Shown here in pieces: positions 2,346 through 23,634 of a DNA stretch of 23,799 nt. Positions within the stretch are counted from its first letter, which is position 1; each line of letters opens with the position of its first letter. A program made the position numbers and the translations under genes. The notes beneath the pieces were generated by a model. That model saw only the letters and a list, made by a program, of their open reading frames with translations, was not told the origin of the DNA and did no database searches. Source of the stretch: a virus; the IMG/VR virus record IMGVR_UViG_3300023294_001163, positions 1 to 23,799 of that record; one strand, given 5' to 3'.

Positions 2346-4007
2346 ATGAACCGAGACGAACAAACAATTACATTATTTGGTGCTGAACTAAAAGATAAAC
2401 TTTTAGAAGGTGTCAAACAACTAAATCAGAGTGTATCTTCAACATTGGGACCAGCTGGTAGAACAGTTTTAATTAAAAGGTTACATAACAAAACAATTAT
2501 CACTAAAGATGGTGTTACTGTAGCTAAAAACTTTAAAGAATTAGAAGATCAATTTTCTACCTTAGGAGTTGAATTAGTTAAAAAAGTATCTATCAAATCA
2601 GGAAACGAAGTTGGGGATGGAACAACTACAAGTTGTGTTTTAGCATATGCCATCCTAGAAGAGGGTATGAAAAATATCAAAGTAGGTTCTAATCCTGTAG
2701 AAATTAAAAAAGGAATAGATGAAGCTGTAGCTACTGTTGTAAAACAACTAGAAGAAATGGCTATTGAGATTACAGACGATGCTCAAATTAGGGAGGTAGC
2801 AACCATTTCTGCTAACAATGACGAAGAAGTAGGTAATTTAATTGTTACTGCTTTAGATAAAGTAGGTAGAGAAGGAATTGTTACTATTGAGGAATCTAAA
2901 ACAGGAGAAACATATCTTGAAACTGTAGAAGGTATGGAATTTACTAGGGGTTATGTTTCACCTTATTTTGTTACTGACAATGGTACAATGACAGCTCTTA
3001 TGACTGATCCTTATATCATGATTTTTGACGGGGTATTACAGAAATCTCAAGATATTGTAAATGCTTTACAAGTAGCCAATACTGATAACAGACCGTTAGT
3101 TATAGTTGCTAACGAGATTGGTGGAGAAGCTTTAGCAACCCTTATTGTAAATAAAATGAGAGGTATTGTTAATGTTGTAGGAGTCAAATCTCCAGATTTT
3201 GGTGAAAGAAGAACAATGGCATTAGAAGATTTAGCTACAATTACAGGTGGACAAGTAATTTCTAGAGATAAAGGACATAAAATTGATAAACTTCAACCAG
3301 TTCAACTTAAAGAATTATTTGGTTCAGCTCGTAGTGTAAATGTTGAAAAAGCTAAAACCACTATTATTGATGGTAAAGGAAGTGAAGAAGATATTGAAAA
3401 AAGAGCAGAAGAAGTAAAAACACTTCTAGAAAATGCTACTTCAGCATTTGAAAAGGAAAAACTACAAGAGCGTTTAGGTAAAATTGTAGGAGGGGTAGCT
3501 ATTATTAACGTAGGTGGTAATAGTGAAATTGAAATGAAGGAGAAAAAAGACAGAGTAGAAGATGCTTTATTTGCCTCATTAGCAGCCCTAGACGAAGGAA
3601 TTATAATTGGTGGTGGAACTGCCTTATTGTATGCTTCAGAAAAAATCTCAAGAGCTGGAACTGATGATAGAGCAGTTGGCAGAAGAATTGTCCGTAAAGC
3701 AATCCAAGAACCATTCCTAAAAATTCTTACAAATGCGGGTCATGATATTAACGATGCTCGTTACGCTGGTTCTAAATTAGTAGATTCTAACAAAGATGTA
3801 TGGTTAGGTTTAGATTATAAAGATCTGTCCACTATTAACTTCAAAGAAGCAGGAATTATAGATCCTAAAAAAGTAACTAGAATAGCATTACAAAATGCAT
3901 CTTCAGTAGCAGGAACTATATTAACAACAGATGCTGCTGTAGTAGAAAAAGGAAGAAATGAGGATGCCCCACCTCAACAACAATGGGACCCAAATGGAAT
4001 GATGTAA
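2346..4007 (+). CDS. groL: Chaperonin GroEL (60-kDa chaperonin)
   Basis: The protein is full length at 553 residues (cellular GroEL is about 545). ATP-site elements are intact: LGPAGRT at 34-40, KDGVT with Asp55, GDGTTT with Asp91, the DRVEDAL block that carries the hydrolysis aspartate, and [15 protein letters not shown]. The apical domain is continuous. The protein should therefore be an active ATP-driven folding chamber working with the adjacent GroES. The C-terminal tail reads [10 protein letters not shown] instead of the repeated GGM of many bacterial GroELs, so the cavity tail differs. Complete groES-groEL pairs are rare in phages, where a GroES-like or GroEL-like protein alone is more often seen. 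Here it lies in the middle of the replisome genes. Confidence 0.96.
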
Positions 4008-6271: not shown

Positions 6272-6844
6272 GAATGGTATAAAGAATTTATAGGAGTGTA
6301 TGAAAATATAATTTCTAAGGAATTATGTGAAGAAGTTATGAACTTAATGAATAATATAGAATTAGGAGAAAGATCTATAGAAGAAGGAAGAGGATTAAAA
6401 AAAGAAGATTATGGTTCTCACCTTGAATTTCACAACCTAGAACTAACTAATAATATCAAAAATATTTTATATACCCAAATTATACCTTTATATTCTAATA
6501 AATATTCTATATTTAAAAACATATACCCCTTACATATTCCTGCCTTTAAAATCCAAAAAACTATTCCTTCTGGGGGATATCATGAATGGCATTGTGAAAG
6601 TTCTACTTGGAATAATAGACATAGAATAGGAGCTTATACTATATATCTAAATGATGTAGAAGAAGGGGGTGAAACTGAATTTCTATATCAATCTCTAAGA
6701 GTAAAACCTACACAAGGTACAGTATGTATATTTCCTGCGGGATACACACATACCCATAGAGGTAATCCTCCTCTTTCTAGAGAAAAATATATTATTACAG
6801 GATGGGTAGAATATTTAGACCCTAAATTATTAGAACAAAATTAA
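6266..6844 (+). CDS. 2-oxoglutarate/Fe(II)-dependent oxygenase, prolyl-4-hydroxylase-like
   Basis: The 192-residue protein has a double-stranded beta-helix core with the iron facial triad. His109-Cys-Glu111 is in YHEWHCESS (an HxE variant of the usual HxD). The distal histidine is in AGYTHTHRGN (His162 or His164), followed by the 2-oxoglutarate-binding basic residue in REKYIITGW. The surrounding pattern IYLNDVEEGGETEF...VKPTQGTVCIFPAG is typical of P4H/PKHD-type hydroxylases, which are frequent in T4-like marine phages. The substrate is unknown. The gene interrupts the clamp-loader operon and is flanked by 25-bp direct repeats, which points to later acquisition. Its ATG lies inside the gp62 stop (ATGA), so it borrowed the junction of the resident operon. 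Confidence 0.9.
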   Translation: MKEWYKEFIGVYENIISKELCEEVMNLMNNIELGERSIEEGRGLKKEDYGSHLEFHNLELTNNIKNILYTQIIPLYSNKYSIFKNIYPLHIPAFKIQKTIPSGGYHEWHCESSTWNNRHRIGAYTIYLNDVEEGGETEFLYQSLRVKPTQGTVCIFPAGYTHTHRGNPPLSREKYIITGWVEYLDPKLLEQN

Positions 6845-8382: not shown

Positions 8383-8574
8383 ATGAGCAAAGCAGGTTTA
8401 CAATTAACAAGTGTTAAAGTACACAGAGATTTATTTGAAGATTTTAAAATCGAATGTATCAAGACAAAATTTAGTTTACAAAAATTAACTGATAGAGCAT
8501 TATACCTCTACCTTACATCCGATGAATTTAAAAAACAAATTCACAATCAAACAAATTTAACAATAGATAAATAA
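8383..8574 (+). CDS. Small ribbon-helix-helix-like protein (putative transcription regulator)
   Basis: The protein has 63 residues from the ATG at 8383. A longer reading from a TTG at 8347 is possible, but it would place the promoter-like box inside the gene, so I prefer the ATG. The layout is a short strand (LQLTSVKVHRDLFEDFK), a helix (ECIKTKF), a turn and a second helix (SLQKLTDRALYLYL). This is the size and order of CopG/Arc/MetJ-type ribbon-helix-helix proteins. It may repress its own promoter at 8351-8366. It marks the border between the replication genes and the sugar island. The fold call is by pattern only. Confidence 0.6.
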   Translation: MSKAGLQLTSVKVHRDLFEDFKIECIKTKFSLQKLTDRALYLYLTSDEFKKQIHNQTNLTIDK

Positions 8575-8585
8575 ACTACAAATTA

Positions 8586-8669
8586 ATGTCAAACCTTAAA
8601 AACAAATATGGTCGTCACATTGAGAAAGAATACAGGAAAAAAATCCTCTTTCTCTGTGACGACATTTGA
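8586..8669 (+). CDS. 27-codon ORF: apparent N-terminus of the next glycosyltransferase, cut by an in-frame TGA
   Basis: This ORF starts 11 bases after the previous stop, the normal spacing here, and ends at TGA 8667-8669. It is in the same frame as the glycosyltransferase that begins at 8676, with only GTT AGA between. Its end, RKKILFLCDDI, is a classic first Rossmann strand of a GT-B enzyme. Joined across the TGA it runs straight into RMHSGIATMAREIV, the expected glycine-containing loop and helix. The simplest reading is one ancestral gene from 8586 to 10046 with a nonsense codon at 8667, or a two-codon insertion TGAGTT. Alternatives are a leader peptide that controls translation of the enzyme, stop-codon readthrough, or a sequencing error. 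Confidence 0.6.
   Translation: MSNLKNKYGRHIEKEYRKKILFLCDDI
8611..8663 (+). other. Strong RNA hairpin just upstream of the TGA and the glycosyltransferase start
   Basis: GTCGTCACA (8611-8619) pairs with TGTGACGAC (8655-8663). After a TT bulge, GAGAAAGA (8622-8629) pairs with TCTTTCTC (8647-8654). GGA (8635-8637) pairs with TCC (8644-8646) around a six-A loop. That is 20 base pairs, all perfect apart from the bulges. There is no T-tract after it, so it is not a standard terminator. It ends three bases before the TGA. Confidence 0.85.
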
Positions 8670-8675
8670 GTTAGA

Positions 8676-10046
8676 ATGCATAGTGGAATAGCCACAATGG
8701 CAAGAGAAATAGTATTAGGAACCTGTCACAAGTATAATTGGGTTAATGCAGGGGCTGCCATTAACCACCCCGAAGTTGGAAAACGAATTGATTTAAGTGC
8801 TGATACGAGTAATCGTGCAGGAATAACTGATGCCTCGGTATTTTTATATCCCCAAAATGGGTATGGAGATTCTACCTTAATTCGCAAAATGTTAAAAGAG
8901 GAAAAACCAGATGCTATATTTTTCTTTACAGATCCCCGTTATTGGGAATGGTTGTTTCAAATTGAAAACGAAATTCGTACTAAAGTCCCAATGGTATATC
9001 TAAACATTTGGGATGACCTACCAGCCCCGATGTATAATGAATCATACTACGAATCATGTGACACCTTATTAGCAATCTCTAAACAAACTGAAAATATTAA
9101 CAGAGTTGTTTTAGGTGAAAAAGCTAAAGATAAGATTATAGCTTATGTGCCCCATGGTATTAATGAAGAACAATTTTTCCCTATAACAGAGGAACACGAA
9201 AAATGGGATGAATTACAAAAAGCCAAAAAACAATTATTTGGAGATAAAGAATTCAAACACGTATTTTTCTTTAATTCAAGAAATATTAGAAGAAAGGCCA
9301 TATCAAACCTTATAGCAGCCTACTCAGTATTTAAAGATAATTTACCTGAAGATCAGAAAAAAGATGTGGCATTAGTATTACATACCCAACCTATAGATGA
9401 AAATGGAACCGATTTATATGCAGTTCGCGATTTATTTTTAGGTGAGGATCCAAGTGTAATATTTTCTACTGGTAAATTAGCTACAGAAAGTATGAATTAC
9501 CTTTATAATTTAGCTGATATTACAATTTTACCATCTAACGCTGAAGGTTGGGGGTTAGCTTTAACTGAATCTATGATGGCGGGTACAATGATTTTAGCTA
9601 ATGTTACAGGTGGTATGCAAGACCAAATGCGTTTTGAAGACGAAGACGGAAATTGGATTAAATTTAGTGCAGATTTCCCATCAAATCATCAAGGAACTTA
9701 CAAGAAACATGGTAAATGGGCTATACCAATTTTCCCTGCCGTATCTACATTAGTAGGTTCACCAAAAACACCATATATTTTCGAAGACCATGTTGATTTT
9801 AAAGAATTAGCCGAAAAATTAAAACAATCATACAAAATGTCTAAAGAAGACATAGCAGAAGCAGGAAAAGCCGCTCGTGAATGGGTTACATCAGATGAAT
9901 CCGGTATGTCTGCCAGAATGATGAATGAAAACATAATCAAACATATGGATGAAACAATTAACACGTTTACTCCAAGAAAGAAATTTGATTTTATTAAAAT
10001 ATACAAATTAAAAGTTAATAAGTTACAACACAAATTAGTATATTAA
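8676..10046 (+). CDS. Glycosyltransferase, GT-B fold, GT4-like
   Basis: The protein has 456 residues from the ATG at 8676. The C-terminal Rossmann domain has the retaining-transferase E-x7-E motif EGWGLALTE (Glu290 and Glu298) followed by GTMILANVTGGMQDQM. Before it, KHVFFFNSRNIRRKAISNLI is the usual nucleotide-sugar domain entry (strand, then R/K pair), and ADITILPS precedes the motif. As annotated from 8676 the protein lacks the first strand of the N-terminal domain, which is encoded in frame upstream (8586-8666) but separated by a TGA. It may thus be made by readthrough or be a shortened form. It is the first enzyme of the sugar island; the sugar and acceptor are unknown. Confidence 0.85.
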   Translation: MHSGIATMAREIVLGTCHKYNWVNAGAAINHPEVGKRIDLSADTSNRAGITDASVFLYPQNGYGDSTLIRKMLKEEKPDAIFFFTDPRYWEWLFQIENEIRTKVPMVYLNIWDDLPAPMYNESYYESCDTLLAISKQTENINRVVLGEKAKDKIIAYVPHGINEEQFFPITEEHEKWDELQKAKKQLFGDKEFKHVFFFNSRNIRRKAISNLIAAYSVFKDNLPEDQKKDVALVLHTQPIDENGTDLYAVRDLFLGEDPSVIFSTGKLATESMNYLYNLADITILPSNAEGWGLALTESMMAGTMILANVTGGMQDQMRFEDEDGNWIKFSADFPSNHQGTYKKHGKWAIPIFPAVSTLVGSPKTPYIFEDHVDFKELAEKLKQSYKMSKEDIAEAGKAAREWVTSDESGMSARMMNENIIKHMDETINTFTPRKKFDFIKIYKLKVNKLQHKLVY

Positions 10047-10049
10047 GTT

Positions 10050-11345
10050 ATGAGTAAACCATTTATAGTAGTTAGTTGCCCACTTGAAACTTATAGCGGT
10101 TACGGCTCTCGCAGCCGCGATATCGCAAGAGCACTAATCAAATCAGATAAATACGACGTTAAGTTTTTATCTCAAAGATGGGGGAATACCCCATTTGGTT
10201 TTTTAGATGAAAACGATGAAGAAGATAAAAAGTTACTAGATAGAATCATTCCAATCCCACTACAAAGACAACCTGATGTATGGGTGCAAATATCAATCCC
10301 AGACGAGTTCCAAAAAATAGGTAAATTCAATATTGGTATAACTGCGGGAATAGAAACCGATACCTGTGATGTAAGGTTTATACAAGGAGCTAATAATATG
10401 GATTTAATTTTAGGTTCATCTAAACATTCACTAGCTGCATTATTAAACACTCAATACGAACAAAAAGATAAAGAGGGTAAATCACAAGGTGTAATTAAGT
10501 TTGAGAAAAAAGCAGACATATTATTTGAAGGTGTAGATTTAGAAAAATATTTTTATATTGAACCTAAAGACTTGCCTAAGACGGAACTTGTAGAATCTTT
10601 AGATACAATTAATGAGGCATTTTGTTTCTTATTTGTAGGGCATTGGTTAAAAGGTAGTTATGGAGAAGATAGGAAAAATGTAGCTGTATTAGTTAAAACA
10701 TTTTTAGAGACATTTAAAAATAAAAAAGGTGCACCTGCCTTAATTATGAAAACAATGTCAGGTCCTGCTTCTATAATGGATAGAGAAGAAATCCTAAAGA
10801 AAATTGATGCTATTAGAAGTACGATAAACGGTAAATTACCTAATATTTACTTAATACATGGAGAAGTAGATGACGAAGACATAAACCATTTATATAACCA
10901 CCCTAAAGTTAAAGCAATGGTTAACTTAACCAAAGGTGAAGGATTCGGACGTCCCTTACTTGAATTTACCCAAAGTAAAAAACCAATAATTGCTTCAAAT
11001 TGGAGTGGACATTTAGATTTCCTAAACCCTGAATTTGCAAGTTTAGTACCTGGTGAACTTAAACCCGTACACGAATCAGCTATTCAAGATAGGTTAATAA
11101 TTAAAGATTCAAAATGGTTTGCTGCTGATGTAAACTTCACTACATTGTTATTAAAAGACTATGTAAGTAGCTATAAAGGGTATGCCGAAAAAGGTAAGCG
11201 TTTAGGACATTATTGTAAAACAAACTTCTCATTTGAAAAAATGCAAGAAAAGTTAGAAGCCATAATGGACGCAAATGCACCTAAAAAAGTAGAAATTAAG
11301 CTCCCAAACATTAAAAAAATCTCATTACCTAAAAAACCAGCATAA
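10050..11345 (+). CDS. Glycosyltransferase, GT-B fold, GT4-like
   Basis: The 431-residue protein opens with SKPFIVVSCPLETYSGYGSR, a first strand followed by the serine/glycine-rich donor loop. The C-terminal domain has the E-x7-E motif GEGFGRPLLEF (Glu297 and Glu305), preceded by KAMVNLTK and followed by KKPIIASNWSGHLDFL. The arrangement is that of retaining GT4-type enzymes, as in the preceding gene, but the two proteins are not close copies. The C-terminal 25 residues are lysine-rich (KKVEIKLPNIKKISLPKKPA), perhaps a basic tail for membrane or protein contact. The gene starts three bases after the upstream gene and overlaps the next by TAATG. Confidence 0.85.
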   Translation: MSKPFIVVSCPLETYSGYGSRSRDIARALIKSDKYDVKFLSQRWGNTPFGFLDENDEEDKKLLDRIIPIPLQRQPDVWVQISIPDEFQKIGKFNIGITAGIETDTCDVRFIQGANNMDLILGSSKHSLAALLNTQYEQKDKEGKSQGVIKFEKKADILFEGVDLEKYFYIEPKDLPKTELVESLDTINEAFCFLFVGHWLKGSYGEDRKNVAVLVKTFLETFKNKKGAPALIMKTMSGPASIMDREEILKKIDAIRSTINGKLPNIYLIHGEVDDEDINHLYNHPKVKAMVNLTKGEGFGRPLLEFTQSKKPIIASNWSGHLDFLNPEFASLVPGELKPVHESAIQDRLIIKDSKWFAADVNFTTLLLKDYVSSYKGYAEKGKRLGHYCKTNFSFEKMQEKLEAIMDANAPKKVEIKLPNIKKISLPKKPA

Positions 11346-13862: not shown

Positions 13863-14840
13863 ATGAATAAAAAAGTAGCACTTATAAGTGGAATCTCTGG
13901 CCAAGATGGGTCATATTTAGCCGAATTTTTATTAGAAAAAGGTTATGAAGTATGGGGAACAATAAAACGCAATTCCGTAGCTGAAAACCAAACATCACGT
14001 TTAGATAAAATCTACCCACTACTAGAAGGTAAATTAGTATATGCGGATTTAACTGATATAGCCTCCCTAATTTCAGTTATACAACAATCACAACCCGACG
14101 AGATTTACAATTTAGCGGCGCAATCACACGTTAGAATATCATTTGACCAACCTATATACACATCACAAGCAACAGGCATTGGAACGTTGAATTTACTTGA
14201 AGCTATACGTTTAACTAAACCTGATGTTAGAATGTATCAAGCATCAAGTAGTGAGATGTTTGGAAATAATATTGATACAGATAGATTCCAACGAGAAACC
14301 ACCCCCCTATCCCCTGTTTCACCTTATGGGTGTGCTAAAGTATATTCATACAACATTTGTAACAACTATAAAAACTCTTATGGTATGTTTATCTCAAATG
14401 GTATTTTATTTAACCACGAATCACCCAGAAGAGGAACTAACTTTGTAACAAATAAAGTAGTTAAGGGTGCTGTAATGATTTCAAAAGGATTAAAGGATAA
14501 CTTAGCATTAGGTAATATGGAAGCTACCCGTGACTGGGGACACGCAAAAGATTATGTTAAAGCTATGTGGATGATCTTACAACTAGACCAACCTGACAAC
14601 TTTGTATGCTCTACAGGTGTATCACATTCAGTAAAAGATTTAGTTGCTTACACATTTGGTAAATTAGATTTAGATTGGAAACAACACATTAAACAAGACC
14701 CTAAATTCTTACGCCCTGAAGAACTAGAAGACTTAAAAGGTGATAGTACAAAATTACGTACTGCTACAGGATGGGAACCAGAGTATACATTTGAGACAAT
14801 GATTGATGAGATGATTGAATATTGGATGAAAACACTATGA
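13863..14840 (+). CDS. gmd: GDP-mannose 4,6-dehydratase
   Basis: The 325-residue enzyme has the GMD nucleotide loop SGISGQDGSYLAEFL and the NADP-binding R-x-S region KRNSVAENQTSRLD. The central SSSEMFG and catalytic YGCAK (Tyr155 and Lys159) are present, as are FNHESPRRG and DWGHAKDYVKAMW, which are diagnostic for this family. It converts GDP-D-mannose to GDP-4-keto-6-deoxy-D-mannose, the substrate of Fcl (12431-13333) and a branch point for other 6-deoxy sugars. It is a little shorter than bacterial GMD (about 370), with the missing part mostly in the C-terminal domain. Its TGA overlaps the next ATG. Confidence 0.95.
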   Translation: MNKKVALISGISGQDGSYLAEFLLEKGYEVWGTIKRNSVAENQTSRLDKIYPLLEGKLVYADLTDIASLISVIQQSQPDEIYNLAAQSHVRISFDQPIYTSQATGIGTLNLLEAIRLTKPDVRMYQASSSEMFGNNIDTDRFQRETTPLSPVSPYGCAKVYSYNICNNYKNSYGMFISNGILFNHESPRRGTNFVTNKVVKGAVMISKGLKDNLALGNMEATRDWGHAKDYVKAMWMILQLDQPDNFVCSTGVSHSVKDLVAYTFGKLDLDWKQHIKQDPKFLRPEELEDLKGDSTKLRTATGWEPEYTFETMIDEMIEYWMKTL

Positions 14841-15655
14841 TATTAAAAATAAAACATTTCGATGAAGCTGTTTTTAGAGGTAAAATGGAACACCTTAAAG
14901 ATGTTCCATTCACTCTATTTGTAGACGACATCCCAAAAGTTCAAGAAGATTTAAGTGAAGTAAATGTTTTAGTATTACAAGAACCAAACGAATACTTCGG
15001 TTTACATGATTGGGCAATAACAAATAAACACTACTTCTCCGTTATATTAACATGGGACGATAAGGTTTTAAACAATTGCGATAACGCAATGTTTTTACCT
15101 TTCGGGCATACTTGGTTTAGAAAAGAAGAATACGAAAAAACATATGATAAAAAATTTCAAGTATCCCATTTAGCAGGTGCTTTAAATAAAACATATGGGC
15201 ATTCACTTAGACACGAATTAACAGCTAGAGAAAACGAATTAAAATCACCAACTAATTTTTATAAAACATATGGAAGTAGATTCTATATTGATGATGCTAG
15301 AAAGGGTAAAGTTGAAGTATTTGGAGGAAGTGAATTTGGGGTTGCGATTGAAAACACTAATCATAGAGGGTATTTTACAGAAAAAATCCTAGATTTATTC
15401 TTACTTAAAACAATTCCAATATATTGGGGTTGTTCAAATATTGGTGATTTCTTTAATCCTTATGGAATTTTTGAATGTAGTAATGTAGATGATATAACTT
15501 ACACTATTAATAGTTTAGATAAAACTACTTATGAAAATCATAGAGAAGCTATAGAAGAAAATTATCAAACAGCATTAAAATATGTTGATTATGAACAAAA
15601 CATAGTTGACACTATAACTAAATTATTTACTGAAAATGGGATACTGGCCTTATAA
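14837..15655 (+). CDS. GT10-type glycosyltransferase, probable alpha-fucosyltransferase
   Basis: The protein has 272 residues from the ATG at 14837, which overlaps the gmd stop (ATGA). A TTG at 14822 in the same frame is a less likely start. The C-terminal half holds the GT10 donor-binding signature: FGVAIENTNHRGYF, TEKILDLFL and TIPIYWGCSNIGDFF (about residues 170-217). In characterised GT10 enzymes this region binds GDP-fucose. With gmd and fcl immediately upstream, fucose transfer is the natural inference, though other GDP sugars are possible. The N-terminal half is poorly conserved, as usual for acceptor domains. It overlaps the next gene by 20 bases. Confidence 0.85.
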   Translation: MILKIKHFDEAVFRGKMEHLKDVPFTLFVDDIPKVQEDLSEVNVLVLQEPNEYFGLHDWAITNKHYFSVILTWDDKVLNNCDNAMFLPFGHTWFRKEEYEKTYDKKFQVSHLAGALNKTYGHSLRHELTARENELKSPTNFYKTYGSRFYIDDARKGKVEVFGGSEFGVAIENTNHRGYFTEKILDLFLLKTIPIYWGCSNIGDFFNPYGIFECSNVDDITYTINSLDKTTYENHREAIEENYQTALKYVDYEQNIVDTITKLFTENGILAL

Positions 15656-16160
15656 TAAATTATTTGAACAATATAAAAATGATTGTACAGTGTTCTTTGA
15701 AACAGGAACCCACATGGGAGATTCAGTACAAGATGCTCTAGATTTAGGGTTTGAACGTATAATATCAATTGAAATAGATGAAAGATTTTATGAGCATTGT
15801 ATGTCTCGTTTTTCTCTACTTGATGTTTGGGATAAAGTAAAGTTATTTTTAGGTTCAACTGAAGACAATATTGAAAAGTTAACCCAAGAATGGGTTAATG
15901 GAAAATGTATGTTTTGGATAGATGCCCATGAAGGTGGAATTAACGCATCCAGTCCCTTTAAGTTAGAAATCGAAGCCATAATGAAACATGAACGAAACGA
16001 CCATGTTATAATAATAGACGATGTTCATAGGGCCTACATTGGAGAAAGTGGTATAGAATGGATTAAAGAAACCTTGGCTATCCACAATCCCCTTTATACA
16101 TTTACAAAAACGAACGTCCACCCAAATACAGGTGGACAATTTATAGCATATATTCCATGA
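15636..16160 (+). CDS. SAM-dependent methyltransferase-like protein
   Basis: The 174-residue protein has a Rossmann methyltransferase core. Motif I is TVFFETGTHMGDSV (about residues 17-30), the acidic end of strand 2 is RIISIEIDERFYEHC, the post-I strand KVKLFLGSTEDNI precedes the helix, and strand 4 is KCMFWIDAHEG. A later VIIIDDVHRAYIG is like strand 5 of small sugar-island methyltransferases. It probably modifies a glycan or small molecule; the target is unknown. The protein is short and lacks an obvious acceptor domain. It overlaps both neighbours (20 bases upstream, ATGA downstream). Confidence 0.75.
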   Translation: MGYWPYNKLFEQYKNDCTVFFETGTHMGDSVQDALDLGFERIISIEIDERFYEHCMSRFSLLDVWDKVKLFLGSTEDNIEKLTQEWVNGKCMFWIDAHEGGINASSPFKLEIEAIMKHERNDHVIIIDDVHRAYIGESGIEWIKETLAIHNPLYTFTKTNVHPNTGGQFIAYIP

Positions 16161-17467
16161 AAGAAATTTTAGATCAAGTAGGAGAGTTTGTTAGAGCAAA
16201 GGAAACTAAATGGGAAGCAGGTAAGGATTTAGTCCAATATGCTGGTCCTTATATTAACGAGGAAGAATATAAAGCTGTAGTTAGAACTATGCTTGAAGGT
16301 TGGCTCGTGTTAGGTAAAGAAGGAGGGGCGTTTGAAAGAAAGTTCCCAAAAAAATTAGGTAAAAAATTAGGTGTATTAGTAAATAGTGGTTCAAGTGCTA
16401 ATCTACTTATGATGCTAGCTCTAACCTCTAAACGTGGCTTAAACTTACCTAAAGGAACTAAAGTAATTACTCCCATAGCTGGATTTCCAGCCACACTTTC
16501 CCCCGCAATTCAAGTAGGTTTTGAGCCTATATTTGTTGATATTGAATTAGAAACATTAAATTTAGACTTAGACCAAGTTGAAAAAGCATGCCAAGAGAAT
16601 CCTGATGTTAAAATTATTACATTCGCACACGTATTAGGTAACCCACCCAATATGGATAGGTTAATGGAAATCGTAGAAAAATACAATTTAATTCTATTAG
16701 AAGATTGTTGCGATGGTTTAGGAACAACTTACGATGGTAAATTATTAGGTTCATTTGGCAAAATGTCCACATGCTCATTCTACCCAGCCCACCACATTAC
16801 TATGGGTGAAGGTGGATTTGTAGCTTGTAATGATTTAGATACCGAAAGAATATTAAGAAGTTTTAGAGATTGGGGTAGAGGTTGTTATTGTGCTGGACAG
16901 GCTAATGCCTTAAGAAATGGAAGTTGTGGGTGTAGATTTAATAATTGGATGCCTAGTTTGCCTGAAGAAATATTTGATCATAAATACATTTATGAAGAAA
17001 TTGGGTATAATTTAAAACCCACCGAACTTCAAGCCGCAATGGGTAACGCCCAATTAAATAAATTAGATGAAATTGGGGTTCTACGTAGGCGTAACCATGC
17101 TGCGGTAGTAGATATATTTAAACCCTATACCGATAAATTTATACTACCTAAAGCCCAGGACAAATCCAACCCTGATTGGTTCGCTGCCGCCTTTACAGTA
17201 AAAGACGGAGCAGGGTTTACAAGAACAGAATTTTGCGAATATTTAGAGGATAATTTAATCCAAACACGCCCTTATTTTGCCGGTAATATTATGTTACAAC
17301 CAGCATACTCTCATTTGATAGATGCCGAAAGAGTAATTAATGATTTTCCTGTAGCAAGAAAAGTAACAACTGATACCTTTTTCTTAGGGTGTAGTCCGGT
17401 TATTACATTAGAACAAATAGATTATATTAAAATAATAGTAGATAAATTTTTCACAGATGAGCAGTAA
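16157..17467 (+). CDS. DegT/RfbH-type 4-keto-6-deoxyhexose 3-dehydratase (E1-like)
   Basis: The 436-residue PLP protein of the DegT/DnrJ/EryC1 fold reads SFYPAHHITMGEGG at the catalytic site. His212 replaces the aminotransferase lysine that would form the internal aldimine. This change marks the 3-dehydratases such as CDP-sugar E1 (RfbH/DdhC) and ColD. Downstream, a cysteine group (CYC at about 241-243 and CGC at about 256-258, within RDWGRGC...GSCGCRFNNW) matches the Fe-S region of E1 rather than ColD. The later HKYIYEEIGYNLKPTELQAAMG is the E1-like tail. It would remove the 3-OH of a 4-keto-6-deoxy sugar nucleotide. No CDP-glucose enzymes are visible in this window; gmd makes the GDP version of the substrate class. 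Confidence 0.88.
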   Translation: MKEILDQVGEFVRAKETKWEAGKDLVQYAGPYINEEEYKAVVRTMLEGWLVLGKEGGAFERKFPKKLGKKLGVLVNSGSSANLLMMLALTSKRGLNLPKGTKVITPIAGFPATLSPAIQVGFEPIFVDIELETLNLDLDQVEKACQENPDVKIITFAHVLGNPPNMDRLMEIVEKYNLILLEDCCDGLGTTYDGKLLGSFGKMSTCSFYPAHHITMGEGGFVACNDLDTERILRSFRDWGRGCYCAGQANALRNGSCGCRFNNWMPSLPEEIFDHKYIYEEIGYNLKPTELQAAMGNAQLNKLDEIGVLRRRNHAAVVDIFKPYTDKFILPKAQDKSNPDWFAAAFTVKDGAGFTRTEFCEYLEDNLIQTRPYFAGNIMLQPAYSHLIDAERVINDFPVARKVTTDTFFLGCSPVITLEQIDYIKIIVDKFFTDEQ

Positions 17468-17585
17468 ATTTTTTTCAAGTCGTAGTGATAACCCACCTCC
17501 AAAATCTAATACAAAAAACTCTACTTCTAGTAGAACTAATGTTAAAAAACAAAATAACGTAAAAAAGAGTGGCCGTGGGAAATAA
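17457..17585 (+). CDS. Possible 42-residue basic, Ser/Asn/Lys-rich protein
   Basis: The reading frame opens with ATG overlapping the end of the RfbH-type gene by 11 bases and runs through the otherwise empty 100-base gap into the methyltransferase start. It begins MSSKFFSSRSDNPPPK and ends KKSGRGK. It is low in complexity, like a disordered tail. It may be a real small gene, or just an open frame before a methyltransferase whose true start is the GTG at 17569. Confidence 0.35.
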   Translation: MSSKFFSSRSDNPPPKSNTKNSTSSRTNVKKQNNVKKSGRGK

Positions 17586-18297
17586 ACTTAAAAGTACTAA
17601 CAAGTACACAAAAATGCAAAAAAAATACTATGAAGAAGCGGCTGCAACCGGTGATGGTGTAACCGTGGATAATGTAGTAGGATCTTTTGACCAGCATAAT
17701 AAATGGTGGGATTACAATCTTTTGTTTATTAGGTTAGGTGATACTGATTATTCTAGTTTTAAGGTATTGGATTTTGCTTGTGGTCCCGGCCGTAACTTAG
17801 TTAAATATCGAGATAAATTTGGGCAAATTGATGGTGTAGACATTGGTAAAAATAATATAAAAAATGCTAAAGCATATCTTAAGAAAGAAGGAATAACTAA
17901 TTCTGAATTATTTGTATGTAATGGTATAGATTTAGATGTTATTAAAGATGAGAGTTATGACCTAATAATTAGTACTGTTGCTTTACAACATATTAGTGTT
18001 TGGGATATTAGAATGAACTATTTTAAAGAATTTCATAGAATTTTAAAACCTGGTGGTGTAATTTGCATTCAAATGGGATTTGGCTCACCATCCCCTTCCA
18101 CAGTATTTTATCATGAAAATTACTATGATGCCCCTGGTACTAATAGAGCATTTGATACTAGTATTGAACACCCAAACCAACTAAAAAAGGATTTAAATAA
18201 TGCTGGCTTTCCTTGGTTTAATTATTTAATTGGCCCAACAGGGCCAGGTGATGTACATCCCTATTGGATTTATTTTAACGCGCAAAAATCAAAATAA
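17569..18297 (+). CDS. Class I SAM-dependent methyltransferase
   Basis: The 242-residue protein (if begun at the GTG 17569) has a clear methyltransferase core. Motif I is KVLDFACGPGRNLVKY, followed by the second-strand acidic residue in QIDGVDIGKNNI, YDLIISTVALQHI (motif II region) and LKPGGVICIQM (motif III). It resembles Methyltransf_11/25 enzymes, which methylate small molecules or sugars. The start is uncertain: GTG codons at 17569 and 17575 and an ATG at 17614 are in frame, and the ATG would remove the first 15 residues without touching the core. The gene is followed directly by the NAD epimerase gene (TAATG). Confidence 0.85.
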   Translation: MAVGNKLKSTNKYTKMQKKYYEEAAATGDGVTVDNVVGSFDQHNKWWDYNLLFIRLGDTDYSSFKVLDFACGPGRNLVKYRDKFGQIDGVDIGKNNIKNAKAYLKKEGITNSELFVCNGIDLDVIKDESYDLIISTVALQHISVWDIRMNYFKEFHRILKPGGVICIQMGFGSPSPSTVFYHENYYDAPGTNRAFDTSIEHPNQLKKDLNNAGFPWFNYLIGPTGPGDVHPYWIYFNAQKSK

Positions 18298-19253
18298 TGA
18301 ACAAAAAAATAGTATACGTAACAGGATGTTTTGGTTTTATAGGTAGTCACGTAACTCGAGCGTGTTTAGCTAAGGGTTGGTATGTTTATGGTGTTGATAA
18401 AATGACTTATGCTTATCATAAACCTTCATATGATGAATTTAAGGAACACCCCCATTTTTCATTTGAGCAAACGGATATAAACGATTTAAAATTTTTATAT
18501 GAATGTGATTATGTAATTAACACGGCCGCTGAAACTCACGTTGGAAATTCAATAGTTAAAAGTGATGAATTTGTAAAATCTAATATAAATGGTGTTCATA
18601 ATTTACTTGAACTTCTTAAAAATTATAGAGGAGAAGGCAAAAACAAACCTATACTATTACATTTTTCAACAGATGAAGTATATGGAGACATTACAGAAGG
18701 GGAACATATCGAAACTGACATGCTTAAACCTTCAAACCCATACTCCGCTACCAAAGCAGCGGCAGACCAATTAATTACAGCTTGGGGTAGAACACATAAC
18801 TTACCTTATGTAATACTACGCCCAACTAACAATTATGGTATAGGACAATATGTTGAAAAACTTATTCCAAAAACTATTAAGTATCTTACATTAGATAAAA
18901 AAATACCATTACATAACGAAGGAACCCCCATACGTAACTGGCTACACTCTAAAGATACAGCAAAAGCCGTAATTACAATTATTGAATCAGGTGTTAAAAA
19001 TGAAATTTACAACATTTGCGGGGGATATGAGCAATCTAACTTGGCTACTGTATCTAAAATTATTAAATTATACTATGGAGATTCTAAAAAGCTGTATAGT
19101 TATTTAGACTTATCATATTCAAGACAAGGTCAAGATATTAGATATGCCCTAAATGATAATAAATTAAGAGCATTAGGGTGGGAACCTAAATCTAAATTTG
19201 ATGATGAACTCCCACAAATAGTAAAATATTATAACAAAAACTTTATATGGTAA
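18297..19253 (+). CDS. NAD-dependent sugar-nucleotide epimerase/dehydratase, RmlB-like
   Basis: The 318-residue extended short-chain dehydrogenase shows the nucleotide loop VTGCFGFIGSHVTRACL, the AAETHVGNSI block typical of dTDP-glucose 4,6-dehydratases, HFSTDEVYGD with the catalytic Thr-Asp-Glu triad, and YSATK (Tyr149 and Lys153). RPTNNYGIGQY and GTPIRNWLH also match RmlB-like enzymes. RmlB would give dTDP-4-keto-6-deoxyglucose, but no RmlA is seen here, so the substrate nucleotide is open. It could equally supply the 4-keto-6-deoxy intermediate of the nearby RfbH-type 3-dehydratase. It overlaps the next gene by seven bases. Confidence 0.88.
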   Translation: MNKKIVYVTGCFGFIGSHVTRACLAKGWYVYGVDKMTYAYHKPSYDEFKEHPHFSFEQTDINDLKFLYECDYVINTAAETHVGNSIVKSDEFVKSNINGVHNLLELLKNYRGEGKNKPILLHFSTDEVYGDITEGEHIETDMLKPSNPYSATKAAADQLITAWGRTHNLPYVILRPTNNYGIGQYVEKLIPKTIKYLTLDKKIPLHNEGTPIRNWLHSKDTAKAVITIIESGVKNEIYNICGGYEQSNLATVSKIIKLYYGDSKKLYSYLDLSYSRQGQDIRYALNDNKLRALGWEPKSKFDDELPQIVKYYNKNFIW

Positions 19254-21004
19254 GGGTAGGTGATTATGTAGCTCAATTTTTAAAAAATAAAGGAGTTGAA
19301 CATATATTCCTGGTTACGGGGGGAGGATCTATGTTTCTTAATGATGGTATTTCTAAAGAACCATCTATTACACCTATATTTAACCATCATGAACAGGCTT
19401 CCACTATGGCTGCCGTCGCATATTCAAAAGTAAATAATAAAATAGGCGTTGTAATGCCTACTACGGGTTGTGGTGGTACCAATACAATTACAGGACTACT
19501 AGATGCTTGGCAAGATAGCAACAAATTACTAATCATCTCAGGCCAAGTAAATACAAAAGAGGTAACTTCATTAAAACCTGAATTAGGTTTAAGAAAATTA
19601 GGAGTTCAAGAAGCTAATATTACGGATATTGTTAAACCTATCACTAAGTGGAGTATAGTTGTAGATAATCCTAAAAAAATTAAATATTATATAGAAAAAG
19701 CATTTTATCTTATCTCTAATAAAAGACCAGGTCCTGTATGGTTAGATATTCCATTAGATGTTCAAGGATCTTTTATAGATCCTAACTCTTTAAAATCCTT
19801 TACCCCACCTATTACAAACATTATCCCCCCCGATATTTCAAATCTTTTAAAAAATTCACAAAGACCTGTAATTATAGCAGGGTATGGAATACATTTAGGA
19901 AATGCTCGTAAAGAATTTCAAGAATTTGTTGAAAAATATAAAATTCCTGTAACCTTTACTTATCTTTCTATTGATCTCCTCCCTAGTACCCATCCACAAT
20001 ATATTGGAAGGCTAGGAACTAAAGGAGATAGGGCAGGGAACTTTGCTGTACAAAATGCTGATTTAATTTTATCTATAGGTAGTAGTTTAAGTATTCCTGT
20101 TACAGGATTTAGGTATGACACATTTGCTAGAGAAGCAAAAATAGTAGCAATAGATGTAGACCCTTTAGAACATAAAAAACCCACAATTAAAATAGATGAA
20201 TTTATAGAATGTGATTCTAAGTTATTTTTAGAATCTAATATGTCTTTAGACTATGAATGTAATTTACAATGGTTAGAAAAATGTAATGAGTGGAGAAATA
20301 AATGGCCGGTTCATAACCCTAAAAATAAAAAATTAAACCTATATTCATTTACCAAAACACTATCAGATTCACTTGATAATACAGATTCTACCATAATCAC
20401 AGATGCGGGTTCAGCTTACTATGTATTATGTCAAGCTTTATTAATTAATCAAAATCGATTTATTACATCCGGGGCTCAAGCTGAAATGGGTTTTACCCTA
20501 CCAGCTTGTATAGGAGCTTCATTTGCTAACCCTAATAGTAATATAATAGGAGTAACAGGTGACGGTTCATTTCAGTTTAATATTCAAGAATTACAAACTA
20601 TAATACAATACAATCTCCCAATTAAGATATTTGTACTTAATAATGATGGTTATATGTCTATTAAGAATACTCAAGATAAATTTTTTGAGGGAAGATATTT
20701 TGGGGTAAATTCGGATTCAAATGTTTCTTTCCCCTCAACTAAAAAAATATCTAAAGCCTATGGTTTAGATTATTTTAAATTTTCATCTCTTAATAAATTA
20801 AAAGAAGATATAAATTCTGTCCTTAATAACCCTAATCCTACTATTTGTGAAATAATTTTACCTTCTAAAGAAGCAATATTACCTTCATCATCAGCAAAAG
20901 TAAATGAAGAAGGGAAAATGGTATCACAACCCTTGGAGAATATGTTTCCCTTTTTAAGTAAAAAAGAATTTAATAAAGAAATGATTGTTAAAAAATTAAA
21001 ATAA
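19247..21004 (+). CDS. Thiamine-diphosphate enzyme, acetolactate-synthase-like (YerE-like)
   Basis: The 585-residue protein has the three-domain layout of the acetohydroxyacid synthase/pyruvate-oxidase family. The catalytic Glu49 lies in IFNHHEQASTMAAVAY and the early loop reads VTGGGSMFLNDG. The central domain begins near residue 190. The diphosphate motif is GDGSFQFNIQELQT (GDG at 438-440) with VLNNDGY about 26 residues later. The GGGSMFLND loop, instead of the usual G-x-P-G, resembles YerE and related enzymes in sugar loci. YerE moves a two-carbon acetyl unit from pyruvate onto a 4-keto sugar nucleotide to make a branched sugar. Its neighbours support that role. A simple acetolactate or decarboxylase function remains possible. 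Confidence 0.85.
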   Translation: MVRVGDYVAQFLKNKGVEHIFLVTGGGSMFLNDGISKEPSITPIFNHHEQASTMAAVAYSKVNNKIGVVMPTTGCGGTNTITGLLDAWQDSNKLLIISGQVNTKEVTSLKPELGLRKLGVQEANITDIVKPITKWSIVVDNPKKIKYYIEKAFYLISNKRPGPVWLDIPLDVQGSFIDPNSLKSFTPPITNIIPPDISNLLKNSQRPVIIAGYGIHLGNARKEFQEFVEKYKIPVTFTYLSIDLLPSTHPQYIGRLGTKGDRAGNFAVQNADLILSIGSSLSIPVTGFRYDTFAREAKIVAIDVDPLEHKKPTIKIDEFIECDSKLFLESNMSLDYECNLQWLEKCNEWRNKWPVHNPKNKKLNLYSFTKTLSDSLDNTDSTIITDAGSAYYVLCQALLINQNRFITSGAQAEMGFTLPACIGASFANPNSNIIGVTGDGSFQFNIQELQTIIQYNLPIKIFVLNNDGYMSIKNTQDKFFEGRYFGVNSDSNVSFPSTKKISKAYGLDYFKFSSLNKLKEDINSVLNNPNPTICEIILPSKEAILPSSSAKVNEEGKMVSQPLENMFPFLSKKEFNKEMIVKKLK

Positions 21005-21009
21005 AAATT

Positions 21010-21546
21010 ATGAAAAAAGCACTAATATTAACTTGGGAAGGGTATAAAGATTATGAAGCTGTTTATCCTTACTATAGGTTAATTGAAGAAGGTTTTGAAG
21101 TAGATGTTATGTCTAATGTTATTGGAAAAGTTCAAGGGATTTTAGGTAGTTCAATTCCAAGCCATTACCTTACCAGCGACTTAGATGATCCTACATTATT
21201 TGAGGATTTCCTAAATGACTACGAAATATTAATTTTACCTGGAGGCGTAGTTTCATTAGAAAAACTAAGACTATGTAAATCATCAGTCAAATTTGTATCT
21301 GAATGGAATAAACTTAACAAAACAATAGGTAGTATATGTTCAGGAGCTCAAATGCTTATTTCTGCTAAAGTTGTAAAGGGAAGAGATATTACTGGGTACT
21401 ATAGTATGGAAGATGACATAATTAATGCTGGGGCTAATTTTATAGATGCTCCTGCGGTAACTGATGGAAATATTGTAAGTAGCCCACATTATAAATGGGT
21501 AGGGCACTGGATGAAGGAAGTTATTAATGTATATAATTCTAAGTAA
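21010..21546 (+). CDS. DJ-1/PfpI family protein
   Basis: The 178-residue protein has the DJ-1/PfpI fold, with first strand KKALILTWEGYKDYEA, then a middle strand ILILPGGVVSLEKLR, and the nucleophile elbow SICSGAQML with Cys110. HYKWVGHWMKEVINV closes the domain. Members include glyoxalase/deglycase-type enzymes, isonitrile hydratases and proteases, so the function here is not fixed. In a sugar island a role in removing reactive carbonyl or glycated products would fit, but this is inference. It lies five bases after the TPP enzyme and immediately before the cupin gene. Its short 3' spacing suggests one transcript. Confidence 0.85.
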   Translation: MKKALILTWEGYKDYEAVYPYYRLIEEGFEVDVMSNVIGKVQGILGSSIPSHYLTSDLDDPTLFEDFLNDYEILILPGGVVSLEKLRLCKSSVKFVSEWNKLNKTIGSICSGAQMLISAKVVKGRDITGYYSMEDDIINAGANFIDAPAVTDGNIVSSPHYKWVGHWMKEVINVYNSK

Positions 21547-22221
21547 ATGTATAAAGATATAGTTGTAACTAAACCTTGGGGACATGAATACCTTGCTTAT
21601 GAAAATGACGAGGTAGGGTTATGGTTTTTACATATAAAAGAAGGACAACAAACTTCCATGCATTGCCATCCTAAAAAAACTACTGGTTTAGTAGTATTGG
21701 ATGGTGAAATAGAAGTATCGTTCTTAGCCGATAGTAGAAAATTAACTGCCCCAAGTAAGGTTATGATTAGAAGAGGATTATTCCACTCCACCAAGGCACT
21801 ATCAGACGAAGCACTTATATTCGAAATAGAAACCCCAAAAGACAAACATGATTTAGTTAGACTAAATGATTCTTATGGGCGTGCTAAATCAACTTACGAA
21901 GGTAAAAAATTCGAAAATCCTAAAACAGATAAAGACTTATGGATTGAAGAACCTGAATTAGGTAAAAGTATAGATTATCAATTTGCTGGGTGTAATTTAA
22001 AAGTAGAAACAATAGATAATATTGAAGTTATTAACAATAAAAAAAATTCTGATATTATAATGTTTTTAAAAGGAGGAATGACACGTAACTTAGAGGACAC
22101 AACCCATACTGTAACTTCACCCGGTGATGTAGGACATGGTAGTATAATTAAACAAGTATCTACTCAATTAGATGGAGTAGTACCGGGAACTATAATAATG
22201 ACAATTACAAAAGATGAATAA
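21547..22221 (+). CDS. Two-part cupin, sugar-isomerase-like
   Basis: The 224-residue protein begins VVTKPWGHEYLAYEN, the KPWG-x-E opening of mannose-6-phosphate-isomerase-type cupins. The metal-binding histidines are in QTSMHCHPKKTTGLVVLDGE (about residues 36-55), with a later RRGLFHSTKAL. The second half (from about residue 125) reads as a degenerate cupin, with IIMFLKGGM and SPGDVGHGSII, and is less conserved in metal ligands. It may be a sugar isomerase or epimerase, or it may bind a sugar phosphate or ketosugar. It is close to gmd in pathway terms, since PMI feeds mannose into GDP-mannose. The substrate is not provable. It overlaps the next gene by eight bases. Confidence 0.75.
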   Translation: MYKDIVVTKPWGHEYLAYENDEVGLWFLHIKEGQQTSMHCHPKKTTGLVVLDGEIEVSFLADSRKLTAPSKVMIRRGLFHSTKALSDEALIFEIETPKDKHDLVRLNDSYGRAKSTYEGKKFENPKTDKDLWIEEPELGKSIDYQFAGCNLKVETIDNIEVINNKKNSDIIMFLKGGMTRNLEDTTHTVTSPGDVGHGSIIKQVSTQLDGVVPGTIIMTITKDE

Positions 22222-22600
22222 AGATAATTTTCCACCTGGTTTTGAAGACGATGCTAAAAACATTGGTATAGATTTTGATGGTGTAATCCATAACATGGAT
22301 AAAGGATTCCATGATGGGGCTGTATATGGTGACCCTATACCAGGGGCATTAGATGCTTTAAGACGTTTAGCTAAAGATTACACTATTATAATTTATACTG
22401 CTAAAGCAAAACCATCACGTCCCTTAGTTAATGGTAAAACAGGAACTGAATTAGTGTGGGAATGGTTAGAACAATATGATGTAGCCCAATATGTAAAAGA
22501 AGTTACAGCAGAAAAACCAAGGGCAATTTTGTATATTGACGATAATGGTTATAGATTTAGTAATTGGAGAGCAACCCTAGAATTTATTAAAGCTGTATGA
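22214..22600 (+). CDS. Small HAD-superfamily phosphatase-like protein
   Basis: The 128-residue protein carries the HAD motifs: GIDFDGVIHNM (nucleophile Asp20 and Asp22), TIIIYTAKAK with the motif II threonine, and the acidic motif IV in AILYIDDNGYRFSNW. No large cap domain is present. The C-terminal WRATLEFIKAV is a helical end. Such small HAD proteins in sugar islands usually remove phosphate from a sugar phosphate, here perhaps an intermediate of the deoxysugar branch. The motif spacing fits a phosphatase, but the substrate is unknown. It overlaps the dehydrogenase gene by four bases (ATGA). Confidence 0.8.
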   Translation: MNKDNFPPGFEDDAKNIGIDFDGVIHNMDKGFHDGAVYGDPIPGALDALRRLAKDYTIIIYTAKAKPSRPLVNGKTGTELVWEWLEQYDVAQYVKEVTAEKPRAILYIDDNGYRFSNWRATLEFIKAV

Positions 22601-23634
22601 ATATAAAATTCAACTATAAACTATTAAGAAAATTATTATTAGAGGCATTAATTAACATAAATGTCCCTAATAATGTGTCTATACCTTTAGTAGATTCCCT
22701 TATAGAAACATCCTTAAGAGGCGTTGATTCACATGGGATTAACCTATTCCCCTTATACTATAAGCTTCTTAATAGAGGAAGAATAAATAAAAATCCTCAA
22801 TTAAAAATAACCCAAACTGGATTATCAACTACAACTATAGACGCTAATAACGGGTTGGGATATTATGCTGGAAGTAAAGCTATGGATAAAGCTATAGATA
22901 TGGCTTCTGAAACAGGTGTAGGAGTAGTAACAGTAAAAAACTCAAATCACTTCGGTGCTGCTAGTTATTTTACTCATAAGGCTGCTAATAAAGGAATGAT
23001 AGGATTTGCTTTTACTAATACTGAACCTTTAGTTAATGCCTTTAATAGTACGGAGGCCTTTTTGGGGACTAATCCTTTTTGTTTTTCGGCTCCCATGGAT
23101 AAAGAAGAACCATTTTGTTTAGATATGGCAACATCTACAGTAGCATGGAACAAAATAAAAAATTATCAAAGAGAAAACCAAACCCTATCCCAAGGTTGGG
23201 CATTAGATAATAAAGGAAATGAAACATTAAATCCCCATGATGCTCATAGTTTAATTGCTATAGGAGGATATAAAGGATTTGGTTTAGGAATGATAATTGA
23301 AATACTTTGTTCGGGGTTAACAGATAGCACTTTAGGGGTAGATATACATTCTATGCATGATATAGAAAACCCTAACGAAAGAAAAATAAGCCATTTCTTT
23401 TTAGTTATAGACATTAAAAAATTTATTAATTTGGATATTTTTAAAAAATATATGTCTACTTTATCTACTAGAGTAAGAAATCTACCTAGTTCTAAAGAAG
23501 AAAAAGTTTTAATGGCTGGAGATAAAGAAAAAGAAAATTTTAAACAAAGAGTTACTAAAGGTATTCCTGTAGATGAAATTAAGTTCCAAGAATTTTTAGA
23601 CATATCCCCTAAATTTAAACAATCTATATTATAA
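22597..23634 (+). CDS. LDH2/malate-lactate dehydrogenase-type NAD(P)-dependent oxidoreductase
   Basis: The 345-residue protein is a full-length member of the Ldh_2 (malate/L-lactate/ureidoglycolate/sulfolactate dehydrogenase) family. Visible signatures are SLRGVDSHGI near residue 44, KNSNHFGAASYF, FLGTNPFCFSAPM, LDMATSTVAWNKI and the dinucleotide element GGYKGFGLGMIIEIL. Family members reduce or oxidise 2-keto/2-hydroxy acids. In this island the substrate could be a carbon-chain unit handled by the TPP enzyme (19247-21004) or a nonulosonate-like sugar acid, but nothing in the sequence decides it. The SNHFG histidine region appears intact, so the enzyme is probably active. The gene is linked to the next by TAATG. 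Confidence 0.88.
   Translation: MNIKFNYKLLRKLLLEALININVPNNVSIPLVDSLIETSLRGVDSHGINLFPLYYKLLNRGRINKNPQLKITQTGLSTTTIDANNGLGYYAGSKAMDKAIDMASETGVGVVTVKNSNHFGAASYFTHKAANKGMIGFAFTNTEPLVNAFNSTEAFLGTNPFCFSAPMDKEEPFCLDMATSTVAWNKIKNYQRENQTLSQGWALDNKGNETLNPHDAHSLIAIGGYKGFGLGMIIEILCSGLTDSTLGVDIHSMHDIENPNERKISHFFLVIDIKKFINLDIFKKYMSTLSTRVRNLPSSKEEKVLMAGDKEKENFKQRVTKGIPVDEIKFQEFLDISPKFKQSIL

Follow-up and report, generated by a model that had tools for sequence, protein, structure and literature searches.

Phage glycosyltransferase genes interrupted at a single codon junction: a probable family of translational bypass elements associated with homing endonucleases

Introduction

How might a phage make a complete glycosyltransferase from a gene that carries an in-frame TGA directly after its first 27 codons? 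The question is raised by G000, a tailed-phage genome fragment (IMG/VR record IMGVR_UViG_3300023294_001163) whose entire 23,799 bases were analysed and are referred to here as the window. Its genes include clamp-loader, GroEL/GroES-like and surface-sugar functions, and the interrupted gene encodes a GT-B type glycosyltransferase (Pfam Glycos_transf_1). The closest annotated relatives of this enzyme, 59% identical, are found in Flavobacterium phages of the genus Immutovirus, and the hosts are probably Bacteroidota, since the nearest annotated phages infect Flavobacterium. This phage, with its own GroEL/GroES-like genes, also carries a run of surface-sugar genes at 14822-23634 (a DegT/DnrJ/EryC1-type aminotransferase, sugar dehydratase/epimerases, a TPP-dependent enzyme, an Ldh_2 dehydrogenase and a GT10-like transferase).

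For decades, T4 gene 60 has stood nearly alone as a case of efficient natural ribosomal bypassing. A homing endonuclease is encoded close to its 50-base gap, which has been proposed to protect against that enzyme (PMC5009743; PMC3014915). Counterparts, perhaps shorter and with matched codons, were described in a 2016 review as 'long presumed' (PMC5009743), and a 2024 kinetics paper names only yeast mitochondria as the site of similar events (PMC11194080). Our search of the open-access literature (subscription papers and preprints lay outside it) found no prior report of a bypass element in a glycosyltransferase gene.

Results

The TGA belongs to a 6-base insertion at a conserved codon junction

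All features of the window gene lie on the + strand. It is preceded by a small gene of 63 amino acids without a Pfam family (8384-8574), a gene of similar size being found before most intact relatives, and the stop codon of this small gene (TAA, 8572-8574) is separated by 11 bases from the ATG at 8586. The 27 codons that follow (8586-8666) translate as MSNLKNKYGRHIEKEYRKKILFLCDDI, in the same frame as the downstream enzyme, and encode the glycosyltransferase N-terminus with the first Rossmann strand, KKILFLCDDI. Next come six bases, TGAGTT (8667-8672), and then the post-gap reading frame at 8673-10046, which encodes the remainder of the enzyme and opens with AGA (Arg, 8673-8675); the annotated start, ATG 8676, comes directly after this codon.

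When relatives were fetched by protein similarity, 79 of 80 read ...RKKIL[FL][LI]CDDI-R-M[HT]SG... or a close variant without a stop, with DDI (or DDL) followed directly by R, and in the one remaining (L076) the same junction is interrupted by 39 inserted bases. The closest relative, L001, whose protein is 87% identical, has an uninterrupted gene, and TGAGTT appears in the alignment as a 6-base gap. The uninterrupted DDI-R of intact relatives identifies TGAGTT as a 6-base insertion and AGA as part of the original sequence. The initial annotation had recognized a first strand at 8586-8666 in frame with the enzyme, and both the coordinates and the peptide, matched in 79 of the 80 relatives, bear this out. 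It had also placed TGA GTT AGA between the two halves; TGAGTT is the entire insertion, but AGA is the native Arg codon rather than an extra one. Whether the six bases arose by substitution or insertion, a point it had raised, is answered by the homologs in favor of insertion. In the same comparison with L001, the N-terminal codons upstream of the gap were found to be swapped for diverged sequence of another length (61-74% identity, with gaps), and both flanks show mostly 77-92% nucleotide identity.

The same junction is interrupted in a family of phage genes

To find further carriers of such insertions, IMG/VR contigs were scanned for K-I-L-x-x-(C/S)-D-D-I without an Arg codon next, and were scanned further for the upstream inverted repeat described below, with and without a stop; GTDB genomes were scanned for the repeat plus a stop. 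These scans yielded 14 distinct phage carriers with an insertion at exactly the same codon junction, although only one of the 92 GTDB matches (L109) was a real carrier. Interruption of the same junction in 14 distinct loci puts the pattern far from chance. The same gap also recurs across separate assemblies (three contigs of the L085 type, four of L088 and two of L086), and we rejected sequencing error for the carrier family on the basis of these identical gaps in independent assemblies.

The ten distinct gap sequences are 5, 5, 6, 8, 9, 9, 39, 39, 40 and 41 bases long. The proposed take-off codon is ATT or ATC (Ile) in all 14 carriers, and AGA always follows the gap. In the window, take-off would occur at ATT (8664-8666), which is adjoined by TGA (8667-8669), and the proposed landing codon is GTT (8670-8672). 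Take-off at ATT is followed by TAATT in L082, L084, L085, L087 and L092, by TAGTC in L083, by TGAGGAATC in L088 and by TGAAGAATT in L094; in L086, ATC is followed by TAAAAATT. The long gaps have 39 bases in L076 and L100, 40 in L096 and 41 in L109, with ATC as their last codon except in L096, where it is ATT. Thus, the final triplet is ATT or ATC in eight of the ten distinct gaps and GTT or GTC in two. An RTY triplet ending all ten would be expected by chance with a probability of order 1e-12, an estimate that assumes roughly even base use for gaps that are partly non-independent. In 12 of 14 carriers, take-off and landing codons are both Ile, and those of the window and L083 (ATT to GTT or GTC) match by wobble only. 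A stop lies directly 3' of the take-off codon in 12 carriers, including the window, and may be TGA, TAA or TAG; in L076 and L096 this position holds a sense codon. Gap lengths modulo 3 cover all values, and with all three frame classes present, a codon-matched hop is the only event that would restore every protein.

In each of the four long gaps, a hairpin of about 10 predicted pairs starts several bases past the take-off codon, and none was found in the window or any short-gap carrier. When the gaps were checked for Shine-Dalgarno-like sequences, GGGGGA was found within the hairpin of long gaps and was absent from the window. No conserved KKYK nascent-peptide signal was found among the carriers. 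Their N-termini are basic and have in common R[HY][IL], located ∼16-18 residues before the take-off codon in the stretch that also encodes the stem described next.

A strong 5' stem-loop accompanies the gap

A strong hairpin abuts the upstream Ile codon in every carrier and in none of the intact genes found. In the window, it lies within the coding sequence at 8611-8663, with its base against the take-off codon, and comprises a 9-bp outer stem (8611-8619 with 8655-8663), an inner stem (8622-8629 with 8647-8654) and a top (8635-8637 with 8644-8646). Its folding energy is -20.5 kcal/mol; none of 200 dinucleotide-shuffled sequences folded as stably, and 3 of 500 synonymous resamplings did. Minimum free energies over the 54-base stretch ranged from -17.9 to -23.4 kcal/mol in carriers, compared with a mean of -7.6 kcal/mol in 66 intact relatives. 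After codon-preserving resampling, carriers gave z values from -3.5 to -9.4, with 0 of 500 resamplings as stable in 13 of 14; the mean z of intact genes was -1.4, so these are weakly positive as well, and the evidence is the much stronger signal in carriers, not the presence of any signal.

In 13 distinct carriers, 85% of cells were paired, compared with 24-50% in slid versions, and the covariation score was matched by 0 of 500 shuffles, a figure to which the relatedness caveat of the covariation tool applies. At the pair 8611-8663, which lies immediately beneath the take-off codon, four of these carriers have G-C and three have A-U, and the other six are unpaired. The register of the inner stem moves by 2-3 bases from carrier to carrier, and a single consensus understates the stem. 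In all carriers, the motif CGT(C/T)AC stands at a constant distance of 37 bases from GTGACGAY, and the two form the stem-loop, whose base lies against the take-off codon. Within the clade that has 5-base gaps, synonymous divergence (pS) was 0.22 in stem codons and 0.64 in adjacent codons. Stem scans without any gap requirement returned 19 viral loci, all of them gapped glycosyltransferase genes, which links stem and gap. The IMG/VR scan for a stem plus a stop found no bypass element in other genes, and the scan for hairpin-type gaps also found no other gene; its unrelated matches (L286-L290) look like chance.

Post-gap codons of the 5-base clade are conserved but mostly lack a start

The initial annotation had offered a freshly broken gene with restart at 8676 as one reading. 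According to this explanation, the 27-residue peptide ends at the TGA and translation restarts at ATG 8676, producing, by decay or fission, an enzyme without its first strand. In the window, as in several other carriers, an ATG lies directly past the resume codon, and genuine fissions with restart, at the interdomain linker, are found in the same enzymes. However, the window gene is not decaying: its dN/dS relative to L001 is 0.084, compared with 0.079 for the next gene, indicating normal constraint, and decay was ruled out on this ground. The 5-base clade is an old one, as its glycosyltransferases are ∼45-60% identical to that of the window, and the first ATG, GTG or TTG after the gap is found at codon 56 in L082, 69 in L083, 61 in L084, 24 in L085 and 26 in L087. 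Only the sixth member, L092, has an early candidate (GTG at codon 6). Thus, in five of six members the 23-68 codons past the gap offer no in-frame start, but purifying selection acts on the first 23 post-gap codons of the clade (pN/pS 0.18; dS 1.4). Indirectly in keeping with a single protein, selection of this kind is seen on both sides of the gap. Since these codons are constrained though start-less, they must be translated, in a frame that differs from the upstream reading frame and downstream of a stem constrained at the RNA level, which excludes simple restart in this clade and would be explained by a hop. Restart also has no need for an Ile-type final codon or a stem, and we consider it an unlikely explanation.

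Readthrough of the TGA (or its decoding by selenocysteine insertion or a suppressor), which would give DDI-X-V-R, is less probable still. In its favor, the window gap is short and in frame, and the 9-base gaps, with one stop each, likewise keep the frame. Gaps of 5, 8, 40 and 41 bases, however, are out of frame, the 39-base gap of L076 contains two in-frame stops, TGA, TAA and TAG are used indifferently, and two added residues would interrupt a motif found unbroken in intact relatives. The initial annotation had named readthrough or bypass together as its other reading; bypass fits the family, but readthrough cannot account for the out-of-frame gaps. Ribosomal frameshifting at the stop (-1 or +2, without a hop) could restore the frame for 5- and 8-base gaps at the cost of one or two extra residues, but it is of no use for gaps of 6, 9 or 39 bases and would shift the wrong way for one of 40, no slippery pairing for -1 is available at AUU-U, and the Ile codon before AGA would be left unexplained, making this explanation very improbable. 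Removal of the gap from the RNA, by splicing or as a small excised element, might be imagined from the ATT...ATT/ATC repeats that flank most gaps and from the structured RNA, but it is the least credible explanation of all, since no known mechanism excises 5-9 bases, an Rfam intron search gave no match above chance, and codons rather than a splice motif define the gap ends.

Homing endonucleases lie upstream of most gapped genes

Homing-endonuclease genes or their remnants were found directly upstream of 10 of 14 carriers; among intact genes the figure is 2 of 71 (Fisher p = 2e-8 with relics counted and 2e-5 when they are excluded; relics were sought in carriers only). Six of the carrier endonucleases are intact, one is degraded and three are relics. 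A NUMOD3-containing protein, whose N-terminus we take to be of the GIY-YIG type, lies directly upstream in L076 and L096, and an endonuclease of the DUF4379/DUF723 type (PHROG 'HNH endonuclease', 'homing endonuclease') is found in L083, L085, L092 and L094. L086 has a degraded copy, and relics of 15-32 residues remain in L082, L084 and L088. No homing endonuclease was found upstream of the window gene. This association, like the 5' stem-loop and the matched Ile codons, had escaped the initial annotation.

A family-independent look at the 71 intact relatives showed an upstream reading frame under 130 amino acids in 69 and another GIY-YIG-like gene in two. An endonuclease was seen upstream of an intact gene in L046, L064 and L213, so nuclease presence alone does not force a gap. 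In L213, an endonuclease (2501-3259) that shares 50% identity with the L076 enzyme directly precedes an ungapped gene that reads GDDL-R, not CDDI-R; resistance to the nuclease was possibly acquired here by sequence change instead of insertion. L046 and L064 carry GIY-YIG-like genes of another kind, at ∼660-235 and ∼601-263 bases upstream of the matched stretch, respectively, with intact glycosyltransferases, suggesting that the intergenic spot attracts several nuclease families. Relatives of the nucleases located elsewhere (L205-L211) have neighboring genes without a visible gap. On a glycosyltransferase tree of 96 proteins, 17 of them from carriers, we counted nine state changes, at least eight of which are forced by well-supported branches, and the patchy spread of the insertion thus reflects at least eight gains or losses.

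Other splits occur at interdomain linkers

The same glycosyltransferase is split at residue ∼146-154, in the interdomain linker and with an ATG restart, in L083 (∼2939-3028), L087 (reverse complement, past the N-terminal 152 residues) and Microcystis phage Mel-JY01 (L197, 3531-3542). These splits look like gene fissions into separate N- and C-domain proteins. Homologs of the next glycosyltransferase (10050-11345 in the window) show a break near residue 167-189 in four contigs, their two parts standing 50-900 bases apart: L083 (4455-5375, with an extra reading frame inside), L087 (7477-7530, oriented), L109 (∼6460-6552) and L059 (6415-7155). This may be a second fission or a mobile-element hotspot, and the breaks look like ordinary ATG-restart fissions at the interdomain linker.

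Discussion

The insertion, the codon rule, the stem, the selection on post-gap codons and the nuclease linkage are direct observations, and their best explanation, which we regard as probable from these comparisons of sequences, is programmed translational bypassing like that of T4 gene 60, disseminated along with homing-endonuclease cassettes. For the window copy considered alone, readthrough or restart may apply instead, because its gap is in frame, its landing codon is a near match (GTT for ATT), and it has neither a gap hairpin nor a nuclease. The case for bypassing in the window is made by the site, stem and codon rule that it has in common with relatives in which restart and readthrough are excluded.

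The steps of stalling, detachment, landing and zippering, and the nuclease target, are those that we infer. The ribosome would translate 8586-8666 and stall with peptidyl-tRNA-Ile on ATT 8664-8666 and the stop in the A site. With ATT in the P site, the 3' arm of the outer stem occupies positions -9 to -1 relative to the codon and the inner arms are further upstream; given the ribosome footprint, the inner arms are near or outside the exit channel. As the message leaves this channel, the inner stem would fold behind the ribosome, and zippering of the 9-bp outer stem would drag the message backward, the order of events that the 'motor' model published for gene 60 assigns to its 5' stem-loop, with the inner stem forming first and the outer one zippering during sliding (PMC5009743). 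The tRNA would then detach, slide six bases and re-pair at GTT 8670-8672 through a U-G wobble at the first codon position. Decoding would resume at AGA and give ...LCDDI-RMHSGIATMAR..., the intact enzyme. Relatives may use the same device over 5-41 bases; short gaps would need the pull of the stem only, and in long gaps the second hairpin could shorten the path. We know of no tests of bypassing with Bacteroidota ribosomes. The element was probably at first one component of a homing-endonuclease cassette that had inserted upstream, and by interrupting the conserved DDI-R codons the gap would remove the target of this same nuclease, a role also proposed for the gap of T4 gene 60. In the window, the nuclease may have been lost, or may never have been present.

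It also appears likely, if somewhat less so, that these genes form a widespread family of mobile bypass elements in phages, in which the same glycosyltransferase codon junction has repeatedly gained, lost and shrunk inserts that ribosomes skip, in company with two kinds of homing endonuclease, and in which very short, conserved hops (5-9 bases) would need only the abutting 5' stem and no gap hairpin. Such a family would tie bypassing to selfish DNA, the gap being perhaps a scar that protects the homing-endonuclease allele, and the carriers display the stages, from an intact nuclease through a relic to none. Comparing its natural members, which differ in the length of the gap, the landing codon, the stop and the hairpin, may reveal what a ribosome needs to hop. 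Gene callers omit the first strand of such enzymes.

Among known systems, two other phage genes are also suspected of bypassing, the terminase gene of Streptomyces phage Hau3 (PMC5009743) and the tape-measure gene of mycobacteriophage Corndog, where an HNH gene adjoins the gap (PMC4351075); both are single, unproven cases without comparative support of the kind available here. In mitochondria of Magnusiomyces capitatus, ribosomes skip short inserts and tolerate imperfect codon matches (PMC5009743), as would be the case here, but that system is mitochondrial and described as context-independent, whereas the carriers are phage genes with a dedicated upstream structure. Synthetic stop-hops, in which matched codons around a stop allow about 9 bases to be passed for one amino acid (PMC5009743), have a geometry similar to that of the 5-, 6- and 9-base gaps. 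Those are laboratory constructs, while the hop proposed here from sequences would be natural, conserved and coupled to a stem.

The comparison with T4 gene 60 is the closest. Matched codons, an adjacent stop and a 5' stem-loop are features that it has in common with the carriers. However, the gene here is a different one, a glycosyltransferase gene, the take-off tRNA would be Ile rather than Gly, gaps span 5-41 bases rather than 50, and most carriers, including the window, lack a gap hairpin. The 5' stem of the carriers abuts the take-off codon, unlike that of T4, and the KKYK peptide found ∼25-30 residues before take-off in T4 is not conserved. These differences suggest a gene 60-like bypass variant rather than a replica of the T4 element, and where T4 provides a single case, the carriers constitute a family with many variants and two unrelated types of endonuclease.
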